Shown piece by piece: positions 1-13,210 of a DNA stretch of 64,000 nt (within the stretch, counting starts at the first letter, position 1; each line of letters starts with the position of its first letter). Below the pieces are notes generated by a model. The model did not search any database. It was given only the letters and a program-made list of their open reading frames with translations, and was not told the origin of the DNA. This DNA is from Methylobacterium sp. NMS14P (lineage in GTDB: Bacteria > Pseudomonadota > Alphaproteobacteria > Rhizobiales > Beijerinckiaceae), in the NCBI RefSeq assembly GCF_028583545.1, contig NZ_CP087106.1, positions 1,671,001 through 1,735,000 of the forward strand, in the 5' to 3' direction. Both the position numbers and the translations under genes were made by a program.

Positions 1-1355
1 GGAAAATCATAAAAGTTCCGAGCGAATGTCAAAGTGTTTCCCATGCCGTAAAGCCTGTTAGCTTTATGCAATCTGCCAAAACCAATAATATTAGTCTTCC
101 ATCCACCCTTTGACGGCTTGTATTCTGTCCCACAAACTGTGTAAGGAAATCGAGTGGTGGGGGCACCAGTCTGCGATGTGAGAGGGCTAGCCCTAAAAAT
201 CGTCTTTTTTTCGAGATCCGAACGATCCGAGAGGTTTTCCTTAGAGGTTAGCGTCTTTACCTCATTACTTTCATTACGATAAAAGCGATAATTCGAGTCG
301 TCCGACGGATCTCTCAGGAAGTACATTTGACGATACTTAACACATGATCGATCTTTGCAATACCAAATTACATAATCAGCAACCGATGCCAATACATCTG
401 TCCCGATTGAAGGACTACCGGCACCGGTAGTCTTCAGGACGAAAATCAAAGAACAGAAATTTGCTGCTCCAAAGACCTCATCCATGACCGCGCGAACACG
501 GTGAACATTCTCATCACCAATTTGCACAAAGATCGACCCGCTCTCATGCAGCAGCTCTCGAGCCACAGTGAGCCGGTCGCGCAGATAGGTGAGATACGAG
601 TGGATGCCCTCCTTCCAGGTATCGCGGAACGCCTTCACCTGCTCGGGCTCGCGGGAGATGTCAGTCTGCTTGCCGTCCTTGACGTCGCGCGACTGCGTCG
701 AGACCTGCCAGTTCGAGTTGAACTTGATGCCGTAGGGGGGGTCGAAGTAGATGCACTGCACCTGCCCCTTCACCTTCTCGCGCTGCGCGAGCGAGGCCAT
801 CACCTGGAGCGAGTCGCCCAGGATCATCCGGTTCGACCAATGCTGGTCGTGAGTGTAGAACTCGGTGCGCGCCTTTGAGTCGAGACCGTTAAAATCAGCA
901 AACAGGTCGGGAACGTCGTCTTCGCGCGCGCGCGCGTCGGTGCGGCGCAAGTCGTCGATAATCGCCTTGGGGTGGATCTTCTCCTGGATGTATAGGGGCG
1001 GCGCCTGAACGATGAGGTCGGACCAGTCCTGCTGGTCTTTGCCGCGCCAAACGAGCTGCGCGTCGCCGATCGCTGTCTCGCCGGTCGCGACTAGTGCGCG
1101 CACCTGCTCCTCGGTGAGCTTGATACGGGCGCCGTTCCAGACGATCTGCGGATCGAGGTCCGGGTCGCGCGGTCGCGTCTCGCCTTTTGGAAGCGGCCGG
1201 GCGCGAGGATATGACTCGGGCCTAAAACCTGTGATTGCCTCCTCGGCCTCAGCGAAGCTCTGCAACTCGGCGGTGGGGATGTTCTTCCGCGCAGCCTCGT
1301 CATGCGTGAGGGTCTCGACCGACTTGGTCGCGTTGCGGGCGGGTCCACGAGCCAT
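1..1355 (-). CDS. Type III-like DNA methyltransferase (Mod), C-terminus beyond window
   Basis: This is probably the modification subunit of the restriction system encoded with the two genes to its right. The frame is open from the ATG at 1355 to the left edge, giving 451 visible residues. DPPYG (motif IV of beta-class N6-adenine or N4-cytosine methyltransferases) is at residues 205-209, after an upstream segment ending QCIYF. The conserved segment GSIFVQIGDENVHRVR follows at about 475-545 bp. The SAM-binding FxGxG motif would lie beyond the edge, as expected for the beta order (IV, recognition domain, I). The start overlaps the stop of the preceding gene as TGATG, so translation is probably coupled. 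Bases 1-500, where the target recognition domain should lie, are clearly more AT-rich than the rest. The methyltransferase call is firm; the type III assignment rests on the neighbours. Confidence 0.9.
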   Translation of the reverse strand, partial: MARGPARNATKSVETLTHDEAARKNIPTAELQSFAEAEEAITGFRPESYPRARPLPKGETRPRDPDLDPQIVWNGARIKLTEEQVRALVATGETAIGDAQLVWRGKDQQDWSDLIVQAPPLYIQEKIHPKAIIDDLRRTDARAREDDVPDLFADFNGLDSKARTEFYTHDQHWSNRMILGDSLQVMASLAQREKVKGQVQCIYFDPPYGIKFNSNWQVSTQSRDVKDGKQTDISREPEQVKAFRDTWKEGIHSYLTYLRDRLTVARELLHESGSIFVQIGDENVHRVRAVMDEVFGAANFCSLIFVLKTTGAGSPSIGTDVLASVADYVIWYCKDRSCVKYRQMYFLRDPSDDSNYRFYRNESNEVKTLTSKENLSDRSDLEKKTIFRASPLTSQTGAPTTRFPYTVCGTEYKPSKGGWKTNIIGFGRLHKANRLYGMGNTLTFARNFYDF

Positions 1356-3223
1356 CAGCGGACCTCACTCAGAAGTGCAGCGTCGTCCGCTAGCGCGGCG
1401 TTCTCAGAAAACGCCTCAGCCTCATCGTCCGGGTCAAGCGGGGGTTGCGGGTCCAGTCCGGACGCAACGGCGTCTGTCGGAGGCGGCACGTCCCGTAAGG
1501 CCGGTCGCTTGGTCGCGTCGTCGATCAGGTCGAGGAGGCCGTCGAGGCGCGCGGCGAAGAACCCATGAAAGTCGTCGGCGCGCAACCGCGCCGGGTCGAT
1601 GGCATGGCTGCGCAAGTAGGTGTCGAGGTTCGCTGGATCAACTGGCGGCTTCGCCGCCTCCAGGCGGTGGAGATACTTGCTCGGCGCGACGCCGCCGAGC
1701 ATCCGGTTCGTCTTGGCAGACAGGGGTGTCTTGTTAACGATCGAGTCGAACGCACTCGCAGGCAGCTTCTGCTCCTGACACCAATCACGCGGAAAGATGT
1801 GGTGGATGTCGACGCTCTCGTCGAAGAACACCGCATGGTCATAGTCCTGACCCGACCGGAAATCCGTGGCCCCACTCTTCATCAGCAGGGCGTTGACGCC
1901 CTTGTAGGCCGCGGAGCCACGGGAGCGCAGCTCGCGGATGCGGCTGGCGCGCACGCTCGTATCCTTGAGCGTCGAGGGCTCCGGCCCGCCGTCGATCCAG
2001 GCCAACACCTCCACGACATCCTTGGCGAAGCGGGACTCGGCGGCCGAGCCGTAGAGTTCACCGAAGACGCCGCACCAGTACCAGGTGCGCACGCACTGTT
2101 TGGGCTGCTGGTGCTCCCAGCGGTCACCCAGCGAGGCGAGGATCGCAGCGAGCGGCACGATCTGGCTCTGGTAGGGCAGGTCGAACGAACGGTAGATCCG
2201 CTGCGTATGAAGGAACTTCGCGGCGCGCTCGAAGCCGAGTTGCAATCGATCGGCGTGGGTCTGGTAGGCCTCAACAGGCAGCGCCAGCAGGGCGTTGCGG
2301 GTGGCGCTCACCGGCGGCCGTCGATCATCGCTGCCGGCAGCGGCGTCCCGCTGGGCCTTCGAGTGCAGGAGCGCAATACCCTGCAAGAAATCCGTCGGAG
2401 CGATCTTCTCAAGCGCACGGAATTTCTTAAGTGCAGCGGCGCGCTTCGCCCAGTCCTCCCGCAGCTTGAAGCCCTTGCCGGCGAACATGGCTGTTATCAG
2501 CTCGAAAGCGTCGAGCGCTTTGCCGCCAGTATTCACCTTCTCGAAGACCAGACATACGGCTTCGTTTGTCGTTGATTTATCCAATGATATGACGGGAACT
2601 TGATACTTTCTAAATGAATCCACAATCTTTTCGCGAAATGCCTTCAAAATCAGCCGCTTGGACTTATTATCGTCCCAATAGTCCCAAAAGCCCTCTTGCC
2701 AACTTTCGTGGTCAAAGATTTTGTTCAAAGGGAAGCGAAGATGCTCATATTCTTTATCAGACGTCGAGAGATCAAGGACAACATCTTTGCCGAAATTGGT
2801 CCGTAAAATGCGGTCTTTGGGAAAAGCTTCGATCGCATCCTCGCGGTCGACGGATGGATCGAGGGCTTTATCAATGTTGAAATAGTAGAAGACATCGATC
2901 TTCTCGATCGGGTTCTGCCGGACGAGCGCCTGATACAGCGACGTCATACGCTGCTGGCCGTCGAGGAGCAGTTCACTCTCCGTCGCTACTTCGGCCTGAA
3001 CCGGCGCACCTTGGATTGCGCGCGGCGTGAACGTCTTCCCGGACGACTTCAACGTCATCAGGGCTCCCACCGGAAATGCTTGAGAAAGGGACGCGATTAG
3101 ACTCCGGATGCGATACTCATCCCAAACCCAATTGCGCTGAAAGTCCGGGAGCTTGATGTCGCCCTGTTCACAACGCTGCAGGAGAGTGTGGAGCGAGACA
3201 GGGTTGGTGGTGAACGTGGTCAT
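1355..3223 (-). CDS. DUF262-DUF1524 fused nuclease (GmrSD-like)
   Basis: A 622-aa protein. The N-terminal DUF262 (GmrS-like) domain carries DGQQR at residues 88-92, the NTPase motif of this family. The C-terminal DUF1524 (GmrD-like) region carries a His-Me/HNH-type signature: DIHHIFPRDW from residue 472, then NKT and NRMLGG. Known relatives (GmrSD, BrxU, SspE) cut modified DNA or sense modification, using NTP hydrolysis. The ATG at 3223 was chosen because it overlaps the res stop as TGATG and begins the conserved N-terminus (MTTFTTNPVSL); the frame stays open further upstream only through antisense of res. The gene lies between res and mod, so it is part of the same transcript. Its activity, and whether it needs Mod or Res, is inferred. 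The middle (about 2580-2900) is AT-richer than the flanks. Confidence 0.88.
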   Translation of the reverse strand: MTTFTTNPVSLHTLLQRCEQGDIKLPDFQRNWVWDEYRIRSLIASLSQAFPVGALMTLKSSGKTFTPRAIQGAPVQAEVATESELLLDGQQRMTSLYQALVRQNPIEKIDVFYYFNIDKALDPSVDREDAIEAFPKDRILRTNFGKDVVLDLSTSDKEYEHLRFPLNKIFDHESWQEGFWDYWDDNKSKRLILKAFREKIVDSFRKYQVPVISLDKSTTNEAVCLVFEKVNTGGKALDAFELITAMFAGKGFKLREDWAKRAAALKKFRALEKIAPTDFLQGIALLHSKAQRDAAAGSDDRRPPVSATRNALLALPVEAYQTHADRLQLGFERAAKFLHTQRIYRSFDLPYQSQIVPLAAILASLGDRWEHQQPKQCVRTWYWCGVFGELYGSAAESRFAKDVVEVLAWIDGGPEPSTLKDTSVRASRIRELRSRGSAAYKGVNALLMKSGATDFRSGQDYDHAVFFDESVDIHHIFPRDWCQEQKLPASAFDSIVNKTPLSAKTNRMLGGVAPSKYLHRLEAAKPPVDPANLDTYLRSHAIDPARLRADDFHGFFAARLDGLLDLIDDATKRPALRDVPPPTDAVASGLDPQPPLDPDDEAEAFSENAALADDAALLSEVR

Positions 3224-6200
3224 CACGCAGCCTTGGAGGGGTTGATCAATGTGTCGACGAGTTCGCCAAAAGCCGTCTCGATGGCGAACACATCGCGGAA
3301 TTCGTGGAAAGCGAAGCGGCCGTGCGCGCCCAGCGCGTTGACCCCCGGCACCCAGGACACAGCCATTGTCTCGGCTTTGAGCTGTGCGTCGGTACCGCGA
3401 TAGCCCTTGGTCTCCAGCACTAGAGTGAGCGGGTCGGGCCGACCGTCGTCCAGGCGCACGAGAAAATCCGGTCGGTAGCGGCGCGGGACAGCCCCGTCGC
3501 GATAAGGCACCTCGAAGCCAAGCCCCTGGTTCTTCACGTAGGCGAGCACCCGCGGGTGCGCCTCCAGCACCCGAGCGAGCTCGCCCTCCCACTCGGAGTC
3601 GAGCACGACGTGGCTGACGTGACACTTACTGGGGTCGGTCTCCCAGACCGGCTTTGAGGTGGTGAAGTTCACGAACCGGGTCGAGCCCACCGGGTTATAA
3701 GGGTCGGGCACGGCCTTGATGCGCTTAGCATCTGGGATCGAGCGCTGACAGGCGAGATAGATGAACTCCACCGCCTGCTCGGCGAGTTGCGGGTAGAGCA
3801 CGGCGGCCCGCGGGACACCCTTAGCAACGAGGTAGTCCCCGTCGAGCCAGAGCCGCACGACGCGCTGGGCCTGCCCGAACAGGTGGACAGGCAGGTGATC
3901 ATCCGGATCTCGCAAGCGCGTCTCTAGCAGGCGCTTGGCGAGCTTGAACGACAGCTCACTCGGGCGCATCGTCTTGAAGGCTTCCTCAGCGTCCAGCGTC
4001 TCCTGCTCACCGACGATGCCGGCCATAAGCACCTTGGCCGGGCCAACGTTCTCTGGTGTCAGGACGAGGCGGCTGTCGTCAGTGAAGGTCGCGGTCAGCC
4101 GCTCATTCGGCAGGTCGAAGCGGTAGCCCTCGATGCGGGGGAAGCCGATCTCCAAGTCTGCGCGCTCACGCAGGGCCTGGACGCGGGTAAGCTTGCGAGG
4201 CGCGGCTGGCACCGAGACCACGGGCTCGGCCGTAAACGAGAACGGGATGCCGAGGATGTCGGCATACTCGACATTGAACAGCCCCTGGTCGTTGAGCTCA
4301 TAGGACTGACGGCGCAGGCCGCGCCCGACCACCTGCTCGCATAGGAGCTGCGTGCCGAAGGCGCGCACGCCGAGGATGTGAGTGACGGTGTTGGCGTCCC
4401 AGCCCTCAGTCAGCATTGAGACCGAGACGACGCAACGCACACGTTCGCCGAGCCGCCCCTTGCGGCCGACCGTATTCATCACCTCACGCAGCAAGTCTGC
4501 GTCTGTGGTCTCGGCCGCCGTGACCGCGTCGACGCCGCGCTCGATCCGCTCGCGGCGGAACTGCTCAATCTCCGACCCCATCATGTCGCGGAAGGCGGGG
4601 TCGAGGGCCTCGCCCGACTCGAGCTGCTCGCTGTCGATGAGCAGCGTGTTAGGTTTGGCGAGGCGTTGACGGTTGTCATCGTAGTTGCGGAATAGGCGCA
4701 GGTGCCCGACGTGCCGCGTCTCGGCCTCACCGTCTGCGTTGGCGCGCTCGAAGCCGGCGATCCACTCGTAGACGAGCTTGGAAGTCGCCGTGTTGTTGCA
4801 CACAACGATGAACACGGGCGGCACATCTATGCCGGCCCGCTCCCAGGCCTCGCTGGTCTTCTCGTAATGCGCGTAAAGGGCGTGGAGCGCCGTTTGGAGC
4901 TGGCTCGGGAAGACGTGAGAGAGCGGGTCGAGGGTGCCGGCCTTGCCTGCGCCCTTCTTCGGCATCGCCTTGCCGATGTGCTCCCACAGCTCACGGTAGA
5001 GCGGCACCTCGCCGCTTGCGGCGTTGTCGGCGATCGGCACGCGGGGCAGCTTGACGATGCCGCACTCGATAGCATCGATGAGCGAGAAGTCGCTCACCGT
5101 CCACGGAAACAGGGTGCCCTCCAGGTAGCCCGAGCCACGCAGAAAGAACGGCGTGGCCGACAGGTCGTAGACCGCGCGCAAGCCGACCTTGCGCTTCAGC
5201 GCCTCGATCCCAGAGATCCAGAGCCGGGCGGCCTCAGCGTTGCGCTTGGCCTCCTCGCGATCCTCGGCCGCGACCGCGTCCTCGGCGGCCCCGGGCTTCT
5301 CGCGGTAACAGTGGTGCGCCTCGTCGTTGATCACTACGAGGTTCTTGATCGGCAATAGCTCACGGCAGACCCGCTGGAGCATCGCGCCCTCGGACTCGAT
5401 CGTGTCGATCGGCGCGTGCCGTCCCTGGAGCAGTGAGCGCCCGACCTTCGACACCTCCAGCGTCTCGCGGCGCTTGAACGCGTGGTAGTTCGTCAGCACG
5501 ATCTTGGCCTGCCCCATGTCCTGGAGCATGTCGGCCGGTACCAGTTCGCGCTTGTCGTAGTAGGCGTCGGGGTCGCCGGGCATCAGCACACGCAGGCGGT
5601 CGCGGATCGTGATCCCCGGCGTGACCAGCAGGAAGCCTCGGGTGAAATGTTTCGCGTTCGGGCTTCGGACCGCGTTGATGGTCTGCCACGCGATCAGCAT
5701 GGCCATCACTGTCGTCTTGCCGGCCCCGGTCGCCATCTTAAGCGCGAGGCGTGGCAGGCCAGGGTTGGCGCCCTCGTTTGCACCCTCGATGTGGCGGATC
5801 AGGTGCGCGTATTGGCGCTGCCGCCCGGCGACCTCGGTAAGCCAGATTGCGGTCTCGACGGCCTCGACCTGACAGAAGAACGGCCGAGGCCCATGCCAGT
5901 CGTGGTCGCGGCGCCAATGCTGGAGCAGCCGCTGTGTCGCGGGCGTGACGCCCCAGTCCGCGGGATTGGACAGCGCGCGCCAGGAAGCGACGTGCGCGCG
6001 GATCTCGTTGATGATCGGCGTCGGGTTGTAGGCCTGCTCTGCGGATGACAGACCGGCGCCGTCGCCGAGCCCCAGATCCGCCTGCTTGCCTTTGCCGCGC
6101 TGCTTCTTCGCCTTCGGCACGGGCGTGATGAGCGCTGAGCGCCGACGGCCTTGGACCGGCTGCTGTTCGAGGGGCTGGCCGTCGGCATCCAGCGCGTGAT

Positions 6201-6261
6201 GTTGGGTGGGAACCTCGTAGGGCGAGTTGAGGATCGGCTGCTCGAAGAACGGCTTCGCCAC
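3223..6261 (-). CDS. Type III-like restriction subunit (Res), DEAH helicase with PD-(D/E)XK nuclease
   Basis: A 1012-aa helicase-nuclease. The Walker A motif MATGAGKTT is at residues 176-184 and the DEAH box (INDEAHHCY) at 313-316. A C-terminal nuclease motif RPDFLVRLDD...LETKGY has Asp932 and E-x-K at 950-952. The N-terminus (AKPFFEQPILNSPYE) matches, from memory, the group called BPTD_3080-family restriction endonucleases. The GTG at 6261 is preferred over the upstream ATG at 6390 because a strong GGGGGAGA ribosome site sits just before it and the conserved N-terminus begins there. It is the first gene of a res, DUF262, mod operon. In type III enzymes Res and Mod form one complex that translocates and cleaves between sites; that role is inferred by homology. 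Confidence 0.9.
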   Translation of the reverse strand: MAKPFFEQPILNSPYEVPTQHHALDADGQPLEQQPVQGRRRSALITPVPKAKKQRGKGKQADLGLGDGAGLSSAEQAYNPTPIINEIRAHVASWRALSNPADWGVTPATQRLLQHWRRDHDWHGPRPFFCQVEAVETAIWLTEVAGRQRQYAHLIRHIEGANEGANPGLPRLALKMATGAGKTTVMAMLIAWQTINAVRSPNAKHFTRGFLLVTPGITIRDRLRVLMPGDPDAYYDKRELVPADMLQDMGQAKIVLTNYHAFKRRETLEVSKVGRSLLQGRHAPIDTIESEGAMLQRVCRELLPIKNLVVINDEAHHCYREKPGAAEDAVAAEDREEAKRNAEAARLWISGIEALKRKVGLRAVYDLSATPFFLRGSGYLEGTLFPWTVSDFSLIDAIECGIVKLPRVPIADNAASGEVPLYRELWEHIGKAMPKKGAGKAGTLDPLSHVFPSQLQTALHALYAHYEKTSEAWERAGIDVPPVFIVVCNNTATSKLVYEWIAGFERANADGEAETRHVGHLRLFRNYDDNRQRLAKPNTLLIDSEQLESGEALDPAFRDMMGSEIEQFRRERIERGVDAVTAAETTDADLLREVMNTVGRKGRLGERVRCVVSVSMLTEGWDANTVTHILGVRAFGTQLLCEQVVGRGLRRQSYELNDQGLFNVEYADILGIPFSFTAEPVVSVPAAPRKLTRVQALRERADLEIGFPRIEGYRFDLPNERLTATFTDDSRLVLTPENVGPAKVLMAGIVGEQETLDAEEAFKTMRPSELSFKLAKRLLETRLRDPDDHLPVHLFGQAQRVVRLWLDGDYLVAKGVPRAAVLYPQLAEQAVEFIYLACQRSIPDAKRIKAVPDPYNPVGSTRFVNFTTSKPVWETDPSKCHVSHVVLDSEWEGELARVLEAHPRVLAYVKNQGLGFEVPYRDGAVPRRYRPDFLVRLDDGRPDPLTLVLETKGYRGTDAQLKAETMAVSWVPGVNALGAHGRFAFHEFRDVFAIETAFGELVDTLINPSKAA

Positions 6262-13055: not shown

Positions 13056-13134
13056 CGCGCCGATCTGCAAGCAACGATTTCGACAACGAAACGCGCCCGG
13101 ACCGTACTCATCGCAGCTAAGTGCTTGAAAACCC

Positions 13135-13210
13135 TGGCGCGCCCTACGGGAATCGAACCCGTGTTTTCGCCGTGAAAGGGCGACGTCCTGGACCGCTAGA
13201 CGAAGGGCGC
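13135..13210 (-). tRNA. tRNA-Glu (anticodon TTC)
   Basis: A 76-nt cloverleaf on the minus strand. The acceptor stem GCGCCCT pairs with AGGGCGC, the anticodon loop is CTTTCAC (anticodon TTC), the T arm is GGTTCGATTCC, and G plus an encoded CCA is at 13135-13138. Its 3' end faces the island, the usual geometry of tRNA-targeted integration. Confidence 0.96.

Follow-up and report, generated by a model that had tools for sequence, protein, structure and literature searches.

A type III-like Res-Mod-helicase operon with two cargo slots that probably carries an autonomous, predicted type IV-like nuclease

The window, a 64,000-nucleotide stretch of Methylobacterium sp. NMS14P DNA, begins inside an operon in which a gene for a GmrSD-like nuclease separates the genes for a restriction subunit (Res) and a modification subunit (Mod). 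Comparison with related loci suggests, with a probability of about 65%, that this operon consists of a type III-like core of Res, Mod, and helicase genes interrupted by two cargo slots, and that it carries an embedded, probably autonomous nuclease predicted to be type IV-like. The core occurs without the DUF262 or DUF429 genes that occupy its slots here, and the DUF262 gene occurs in many other places. Because the position of the DUF262 gene holds many different extra genes in other bacteria, the gene looks like an exchangeable addition.

The core would consist of Res, an ATP-driven nuclease, Mod, a methyltransferase, and a UvrD-like helicase whose N-terminus is possibly RelE-like. Two places would serve for the exchange of extra genes, and here would hold a DUF262-HNH nuclease in slot 1 and a DUF429 gene in slot 2. 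From what is known of the family, Res/Mod would restrict unmethylated DNA. The DUF262 enzyme, presumably alone, would use its DGQQR nucleotide site and its HNH site to cut modified-base phage DNA that escapes Res; this attack on modified DNA is drawn from BrxU, GmrSD, and TgvAB as presented in PMC12707154, PMC4619093, and PMC11411939. The DUF262 gene would be carried since co-transcription with the restriction-modification (RM) core gives both layers of defense at once, and not for need of Mod.

Organization of the operon

Three minus-strand genes, in the order res, DUF262 gene, and mod, form the part of the operon that lies in the window. The first gene, res (3223..6261), encodes a 1012-amino acid BPTD_3080-family (type III-like) restriction subunit. 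The DUF262 gene (1355..3223), whose ATG shares one base with the res stop codon, encodes a 622-amino acid protein with DUF262 and His-Me (HNH) nuclease domains and a BrxU/GmrSD fold. The mod gene (1..1355) encodes an amino-methyltransferase of beta order, and the window holds the first 451 of its 1031 amino acids; the remainder (contig 1669260-1671000) extends ~1.7 kb past the window start. One-base TGATG overlaps, read directly in the sequence at 3221..3225 (res/DUF262) and 1353..1357 (DUF262/mod), join the genes and are kept in the closest relative, L047. The operon, gene identities, and overlaps given in the initial annotation are confirmed.

We define slot 1 as the res-mod junction, and slot 2 as the interval between mod and the helicase gene. 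Slot 2 is occupied by the DUF429 gene (contig 1668456-1669256), which lies downstream of mod and outside the window. It starts 3 nt after the end of mod, and its product matches PADLOC family PDC-S44 with 98 bits. The UvrD-like helicase gene (contig start near 1668459, end 1666387), also outside the window, follows. At the helicase N-terminus (contig about 1668091-1668459) is a weak HigB/RelE-like toxin domain, a match under the Pfam cut-off both here (E 0.0092) and in L047 (E 0.0013). After the helicase gene come a gene of 354 amino acids without a match and one of 213 amino acids (contig 1665211-1666275 and 1664171-1664812). The 213-amino acid product weakly matches PDC-S54, a family that also matches slot 1 cargo of another locus (L148).

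The Res and Mod subunits

A profile search assigns Res, over its full length, to NF046055 (1281 bits). Pfam finds ResIII over its cut-off (E 1.8e-9) and RE_endonuc under it (20.7 bits; cut-off 23.4). The motifs, located by pattern only, are a Walker A GAGKT at residue 180, DEAH at 314, and a PD-(D/E)XK-like PDF...ETKG at 932, such that an SF2 helicase with a C-terminal PD-(D/E)XK, the hallmark of type III Res proteins, is present. At E 0.01, the Res sequence matches no solved structure.

Mod matches solved type III Mod subunits, the Pfam family N6_N4_Mtase (E 6.8e-31), and the PADLOC model MTase_III (1149 bits). Its DPPY motif (205) precedes DPTCGSGT (499), a motif of FxGxG type, which is the order demanded of type III Mod proteins. 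A stretch of low identity across 47 loci lies between these motifs, at about 300-475, and by inference from beta-class methyltransferases, we take this block to function in target recognition.

Type III enzymes recognize paired asymmetric sites and, in an ATP-dependent manner, cut about 25-27 bp away from them. The operon resembles type III RM systems (EcoP15I, Mbo45V, and the Mod of PDB 6k0w) in the similarity of Mod and in the helicase and nuclease motifs of Res, but differs in having res before mod, a 1031-amino acid Mod, usually a third helicase gene, and cargo slots. Because the family does not conform to a two-gene mod-res unit (of 59 loci that contain both genes, 48 have res in front, and 36 of these 48 carry the helicase), we label it only as type III-like.

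The embedded nuclease

The middle protein matches GmrSD_N (DUF262) with 100.6 bits, over the Pfam cut-off of 33.2, and residues 88-92 (DGQQR) are invariant across 40 aligned rows (the window and 39 relatives). The Pfam model for DUF1524 (PF07510) does not match this protein even at E 10, and matches one of three relatives scanned (L113; E 2.9e-4, below cut-off). Because Pfam alone finds no DUF1524, the C-terminal domain was assigned via its fold. The predicted structure matches BrxU (PDB 7p9k, 7p9m) across both domains, in an alignment that reaches residue 573, and the two proteins share DGQQR and the His-Me residues. However, they are only about 16-17% identical, and the superposition has an rmsd of 16-17, which indicates a different relative placement of the domains. 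The His-Me residues D472, H475, N497, and N506 are invariant in the window and 39 relatives, so that fold and residues together identify a DUF1524-type His-Me domain without the Pfam model. On the basis of the DUF262 match, the BrxU fold match, and the invariant nucleotide-site and His-Me residues, we predict that the protein is an apparently intact GmrSD-type enzyme. The hallmark activity of the GmrSD/BrxU family is NTP-dependent cleavage of DNA containing modified cytosine. The general idea of the initial annotation, in which a GmrSD-like enzyme stands next to a system restricting unmodified DNA, is supported at the level of predicted function.

Structural relatives of the protein also include SspE and DndI. 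Systems of their type have phosphorothioation genes alongside. For the five operon proteins and three nearby proteins, no match to a Dnd/Ssp modification gene is found among the PADLOC matches listed (for Mod, the best 25 of 48; for the helicase, the best 25 of 33). The same is true of Hma helicase, methylase, and ATPase models among the matches listed for these eight proteins. The best PADLOC match of the middle protein is PDC-M55C (84.5 bits); it also matches HEC-05 (58.9 bits) and, weakly, HEC-06 (21.3 bits).

Among 50,697 phage records, four contain relatives of the DUF262 protein (E 1e-5), of which two are full-length with 37-42% identity, and none contains Res at E 1e-20. Window positions 1358-4200 have no DNA match in E. 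coli genomes.

A proposed core with two cargo slots

We looked for NF046055 in three overlapping sets of genomes, drawn from the class (289), the phylum (398), and the order (397). Res is present in 17 of the 289 class genomes sampled, counting that of the window. In addition to the window, 60 loci found through Res were examined; matches from genomes G390, G427, G343, G556, G408, G332, G821, G822, and G874 were left out as fragments, split, or at contig ends. Setting aside one locus without Mod (L153) and 11 loci with mod before res leaves 48 loci, some truncated by a contig end after the start of mod. Nine of the 11 reversed loci are distant, their Res and Mod having 31-46% identity, and lack a visible helicase; in the other two (L028 and L029), the helicase is present on the opposite strand.

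The helicase gene is found in 36 of the 48 loci. Among the 34 with more than 6.5 kb beyond mod, 29 have it and five do not. Of 15 genomes that carry the helicase, 10 also carry Res (expected 0.83; p 2e-11), and this co-occurrence far above expectation indicates that the helicase belongs to the core. Three of the five helicase copies in genomes without Res sit at contig starts.

The res-mod junction of the 48 loci holds this DUF262 gene in six (L033, L034, L147, L151, L152, and L162), another open reading frame (ORF) in 31 (250 nt or more), a short gap in two, and nothing in nine (<130 nt); slot ORFs were picked mechanically by length. In four of the nine (L026, L136, L150, and L158), both slots are empty, leaving a bare Res-Mod-helicase operon with gaps under 130 nt. 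The host operon is thus complete without the DUF262 gene. A 52-amino acid ORF in the 158-nt res-mod gap of L139 clusters with DUF262 proteins, and is perhaps a remnant of lost cargo.

The cargo is diverse. Pfam matches 10 of 20 slot 1 proteins scanned (NYN, PIN twice, HepT-like, Bro-N twice, PDDEXK_4, REase-ARP, FRG, and DUF6508) and seven of 10 slot 2 proteins (HNH, SNF2/Helicase_C, AAA twice, subtilase, SNase, and a different DUF262-DUF1524 protein). PADLOC candidate families (PDC/HEC) are matched by nine of 19 cargo proteins, the twentieth protein in that scan being a neighbor gene in L041 rather than cargo; other loci include HEC-06, HEC-07, and PDC matches. The different DUF262-DUF1524 protein, in slot 2 of L149 (9167-10843, minus strand), is HEC-06-like and has both Pfam domains.

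This DUF262 gene is present at six of 48 junctions, whereas random placement would put a gene there about 0.0003 times, by a rough estimate that assumes 3500 genes per genome. The gene thus occurs in the slot far above chance, and its association with the slot, as cargo, is real but optional. At the genome level, this DUF262 subfamily is found in five of 289 class genomes besides that of the window, and two of these have Res (expected 0.28; p 0.026). The initial annotation proposed to look for the triad above chance in other genomes, and there it is found; the same annotation named a majority of res-mod loci without DUF262 as the first of two joint conditions against its proposal, and 42 of 48 lack it.

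That annotation also took the tight coupling of the genes to argue for a single system, a view that does not survive comparison with other cargo. An ATG overlaps the res stop codon in 16 of 31 loci with other cargo versus six of 16 with DUF262 (nearest-ATG distances leave out GTG and TTG starts). Because such an overlap is no less frequent for unrelated cargo, the coupling, judged from these start sites, is a property of the slot and no argument for a joint enzyme.

We suggest only tentatively that Res(BPTD_3080)-Mod-RelE/UvrD-helicase is a three-subunit type III-like subtype with two dedicated exchange sites. Such a subtype might be a chassis for effectors, including a DUF262 enzyme that profits from co-translation with Res.

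Relatives and history of the DUF262 gene

Among the 80 nearest relatives of the DUF262 protein in the genomes searched, 10 lie in res-DUF262-mod triads, and for 70 the flanking DNA examined contains neither a Res nor a Mod of this family (at least 1.5 kb upstream for 63 and under 1.5 kb for seven; at least 5 kb on both sides for 36). The gene is thus common outside the host operon. Of the non-triad loci, 42 have at least 5 kb on each side, and in 25 of these no ORF with a methyltransferase motif lies within 8 kb; the motif matched 40 of 878 ORFs, and seven when reversed, and can miss genes, such as one that L065 has beyond 8 kb. Six plasmid relatives were inspected, and in four the annotation places other methylase and helicase genes next to DUF262; some other relatives adjoin methyltransferase- or helicase-like genes, as judged by motif.

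Some relatives have other recurrent neighbors. In two sphingomonad plasmids, a ~730-amino acid protein annotated as an HTH regulator is encoded 28 nt (L040, 3078-5258) and 19 nt (L041, 6780-8972) before the DUF262 gene, and is a possible partner; the L041 copy has no PADLOC match. In L065, L067, L068, and L080, the DUF262 match is preceded, at a distance of about 80 nt, by the end of a gene for a ~300-amino acid protein, and in L065 and L067, DUF262 is followed by a gene of 1725 amino acids and a helicase-like gene.

When present in a triad, the DUF262 gene is always the first after res and in the same orientation (16 of 16 triads other than that of the window). This fixed position shows that the association is not loose, and is a point against the cargo reading. 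A quick tree was made of 93 DUF262 proteins, 17 of them triad members including the window; it carried long-branch warnings, one on triad member L033. L075, which is the L152 locus with an identical DUF262, is one of the 10 triads counted in the 80 relatives, but the tree, the distance test, and the overlap counts were made without it. The res-mod context changes nine times on this tree, or at least seven times counting starred branches alone. Shuffled triad labels gave 15.9 changes, and none of 500 shuffles was as low as nine. The triad label is clustered and not single-origin.

Pairwise distances correlate between Res and DUF262 (rho 0.30, p 0.012; 17 loci), Mod and DUF262 (rho 0.46, p 0.004), and helicase and DUF262 (rho 0.57). 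The last value equals that for Res and Mod (rho 0.57), and Res and helicase give rho 0.66 (15 loci each for these two core pairs). Res distances therefore follow those of DUF262 less closely than those of Mod or the helicase, in line with the cargo reading, whereas the helicase-DUF262 value and the positive sign of all correlations speak against it. The res gene of L048 is in two frames, and the longer piece alone was used. The clustered label and the positive correlations suggest that some lineages keep the combination for a long time.

The closest relative, L047, is from Methylobacterium sp. J-088. Its Res is 96% identical and its DUF262 protein about 91% identical, whereas two Mod blocks (about 301-450 and 601-700) drop to 24-52% identity; its slot 2 gene is also a different one. 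The replaced blocks are the variable parts of Mod across the 47 loci. Because DUF262 was kept while a block in the place expected for target recognition was replaced, the DUF262 protein is probably not fitted to one Mod motif.

These data bear on the suggestion, also made in the initial annotation, that the DUF262 protein uses the Mod mark as its signal. In such an integrated system, the nuclease would sense the methyl mark of Mod and be licensed or directed by it, as SspE and DndI sense phosphorothioate. The invariable place directly after res, the overlapping genes, the structural likeness to SspE and DndI, and the correlation of Mod and DUF262 distances are what this explanation would predict. 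However, the 70 relatives without a nearby Res or Mod of this family, the 25 well-flanked relatives without any methyltransferase-motif ORF, and the replacement of Mod blocks in L047 all disfavor reading of the Mod mark. For these reasons, and given the slot-level coupling and the 42 loci without DUF262, we reject a single integrated system as the leading idea and consider it improbable.

The Res/Mod complex could instead hold the DUF262 enzyme inactive until a phage inhibitor disables the complex and releases the enzyme, which is the guard mechanism of PrrC held by EcoprrI. (PrrC in EcoprrI is named in PMC12707154.) The slot also takes toxin-like genes that are unrelated to DUF262 (PIN, HepT-like), and this, like the frequent overlap with res, fits effectors coupled to RM integrity. 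However, relatives without a visible Res or Mod would be unguarded, and the Res-DUF262 distance correlation is weak, making it unlikely that the enzyme is guarded in this way. Pure hitchhiking, with the res-mod junction as a recombination hotspot and DUF262 tied to the core by shared transcription alone, would account for diverse slot contents, empty slots, and repeated changes of context on the DUF262 tree, but is unlikely given that DUF262 is in the slot far above chance and that identifiable cargo is rich in nuclease, toxin-like, or defense-candidate genes, although Pfam matches only half of the scanned slot 1 cargo.

Comparison with known embedded enzymes

A GmrSD-like gene within an RM or related operon has parallels elsewhere. 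TgvAB lies in a Vibrio type I RM operon, and complementary restriction of modified phages is proposed for it in PMC11411939. Like the window's protein, it is a DUF262/DUF1524 enzyme encoded within an RM operon; however, its host is a type I hsd operon and two proteins are needed, whereas in the window a single fused protein is encoded between the res and mod genes of a type III-like system. HEC-05 and HEC-06 are GmrSD-like genes embedded in Hma systems, which are multi-gene defense operons, according to PMC11411939 and PMC12988326. The window's gene is likewise GmrSD-like and in such an operon, and its product matches the HEC-05 model and, weakly, the HEC-06 model, but the host differs, being Res(BPTD_3080)-Mod-UvrD, and the best PADLOC match is PDC-M55C. 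RloF is a DUF262 gene between hsdS and hsdR in Campylobacter type I loci (PMC4619093), and thus also lies between RM genes, but of a type I host. The same paper credits Machnicka et al. with the observation that ResIII domains are enriched near GmrSD genes. BrxU sits beside BREX (PMC12707154), and DarTG2 inside a type I operon is a toxin parallel (PMC12255303).

In our literature search, BPTD_3080 is named in no paper, and titles and abstracts yielded nothing on genes between res and mod. PDC-M55 is likewise named in no paper, and PDC-S44 once, in one environmental paper. Neither the core of BPTD_3080 Res, Mod, and helicase nor its pair of slots is described in what the search covered, although the Payne et al. 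2024 preprint may list the host. Type I and Hma loci are known to harbor embedded enzymes of the GmrSD-like kind, whereas this host family and its slots appear to be new.

These findings extend the idea of the embedded defense gene to a widespread type III-like family, and illustrate that overlapping genes need not imply a joint enzyme. New anti-phage genes may be sought among the slot contents, several of which match neither Pfam nor PADLOC. The usual presence of a UvrD-like partner raises the question of whether this type of RM system needs a third subunit.

Probable island setting

The operon is probably inside a ~23-kb integrated island, as suggested by a 71-bp perfect direct repeat at tRNA-Glu and a tyrosine integrase at one end. 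The right copy of the repeat (window 13114..13184) covers part of tRNA-Glu, and the left copy (contig 1661091-1661161) has the integrase gene beside it. Between the repeats are the tyrosine integrase gene, an HTH_17 gene, which we take to be AlpA-like, and a DUF3987 gene. Three congeners do not have the island at this tRNA. Their right flank is kept (87-95%), but the left side is different DNA, so that none of them provides an empty tRNA-Glu site.

A third, partial copy of the tRNA-Glu repeat (contig 1613194-1613254; 100% over 61 bases) perhaps marks a second island stacked to the left. Also left of the island is a gene for a Sll1717-family P-loop ATPase (contig 1657893-1659620).
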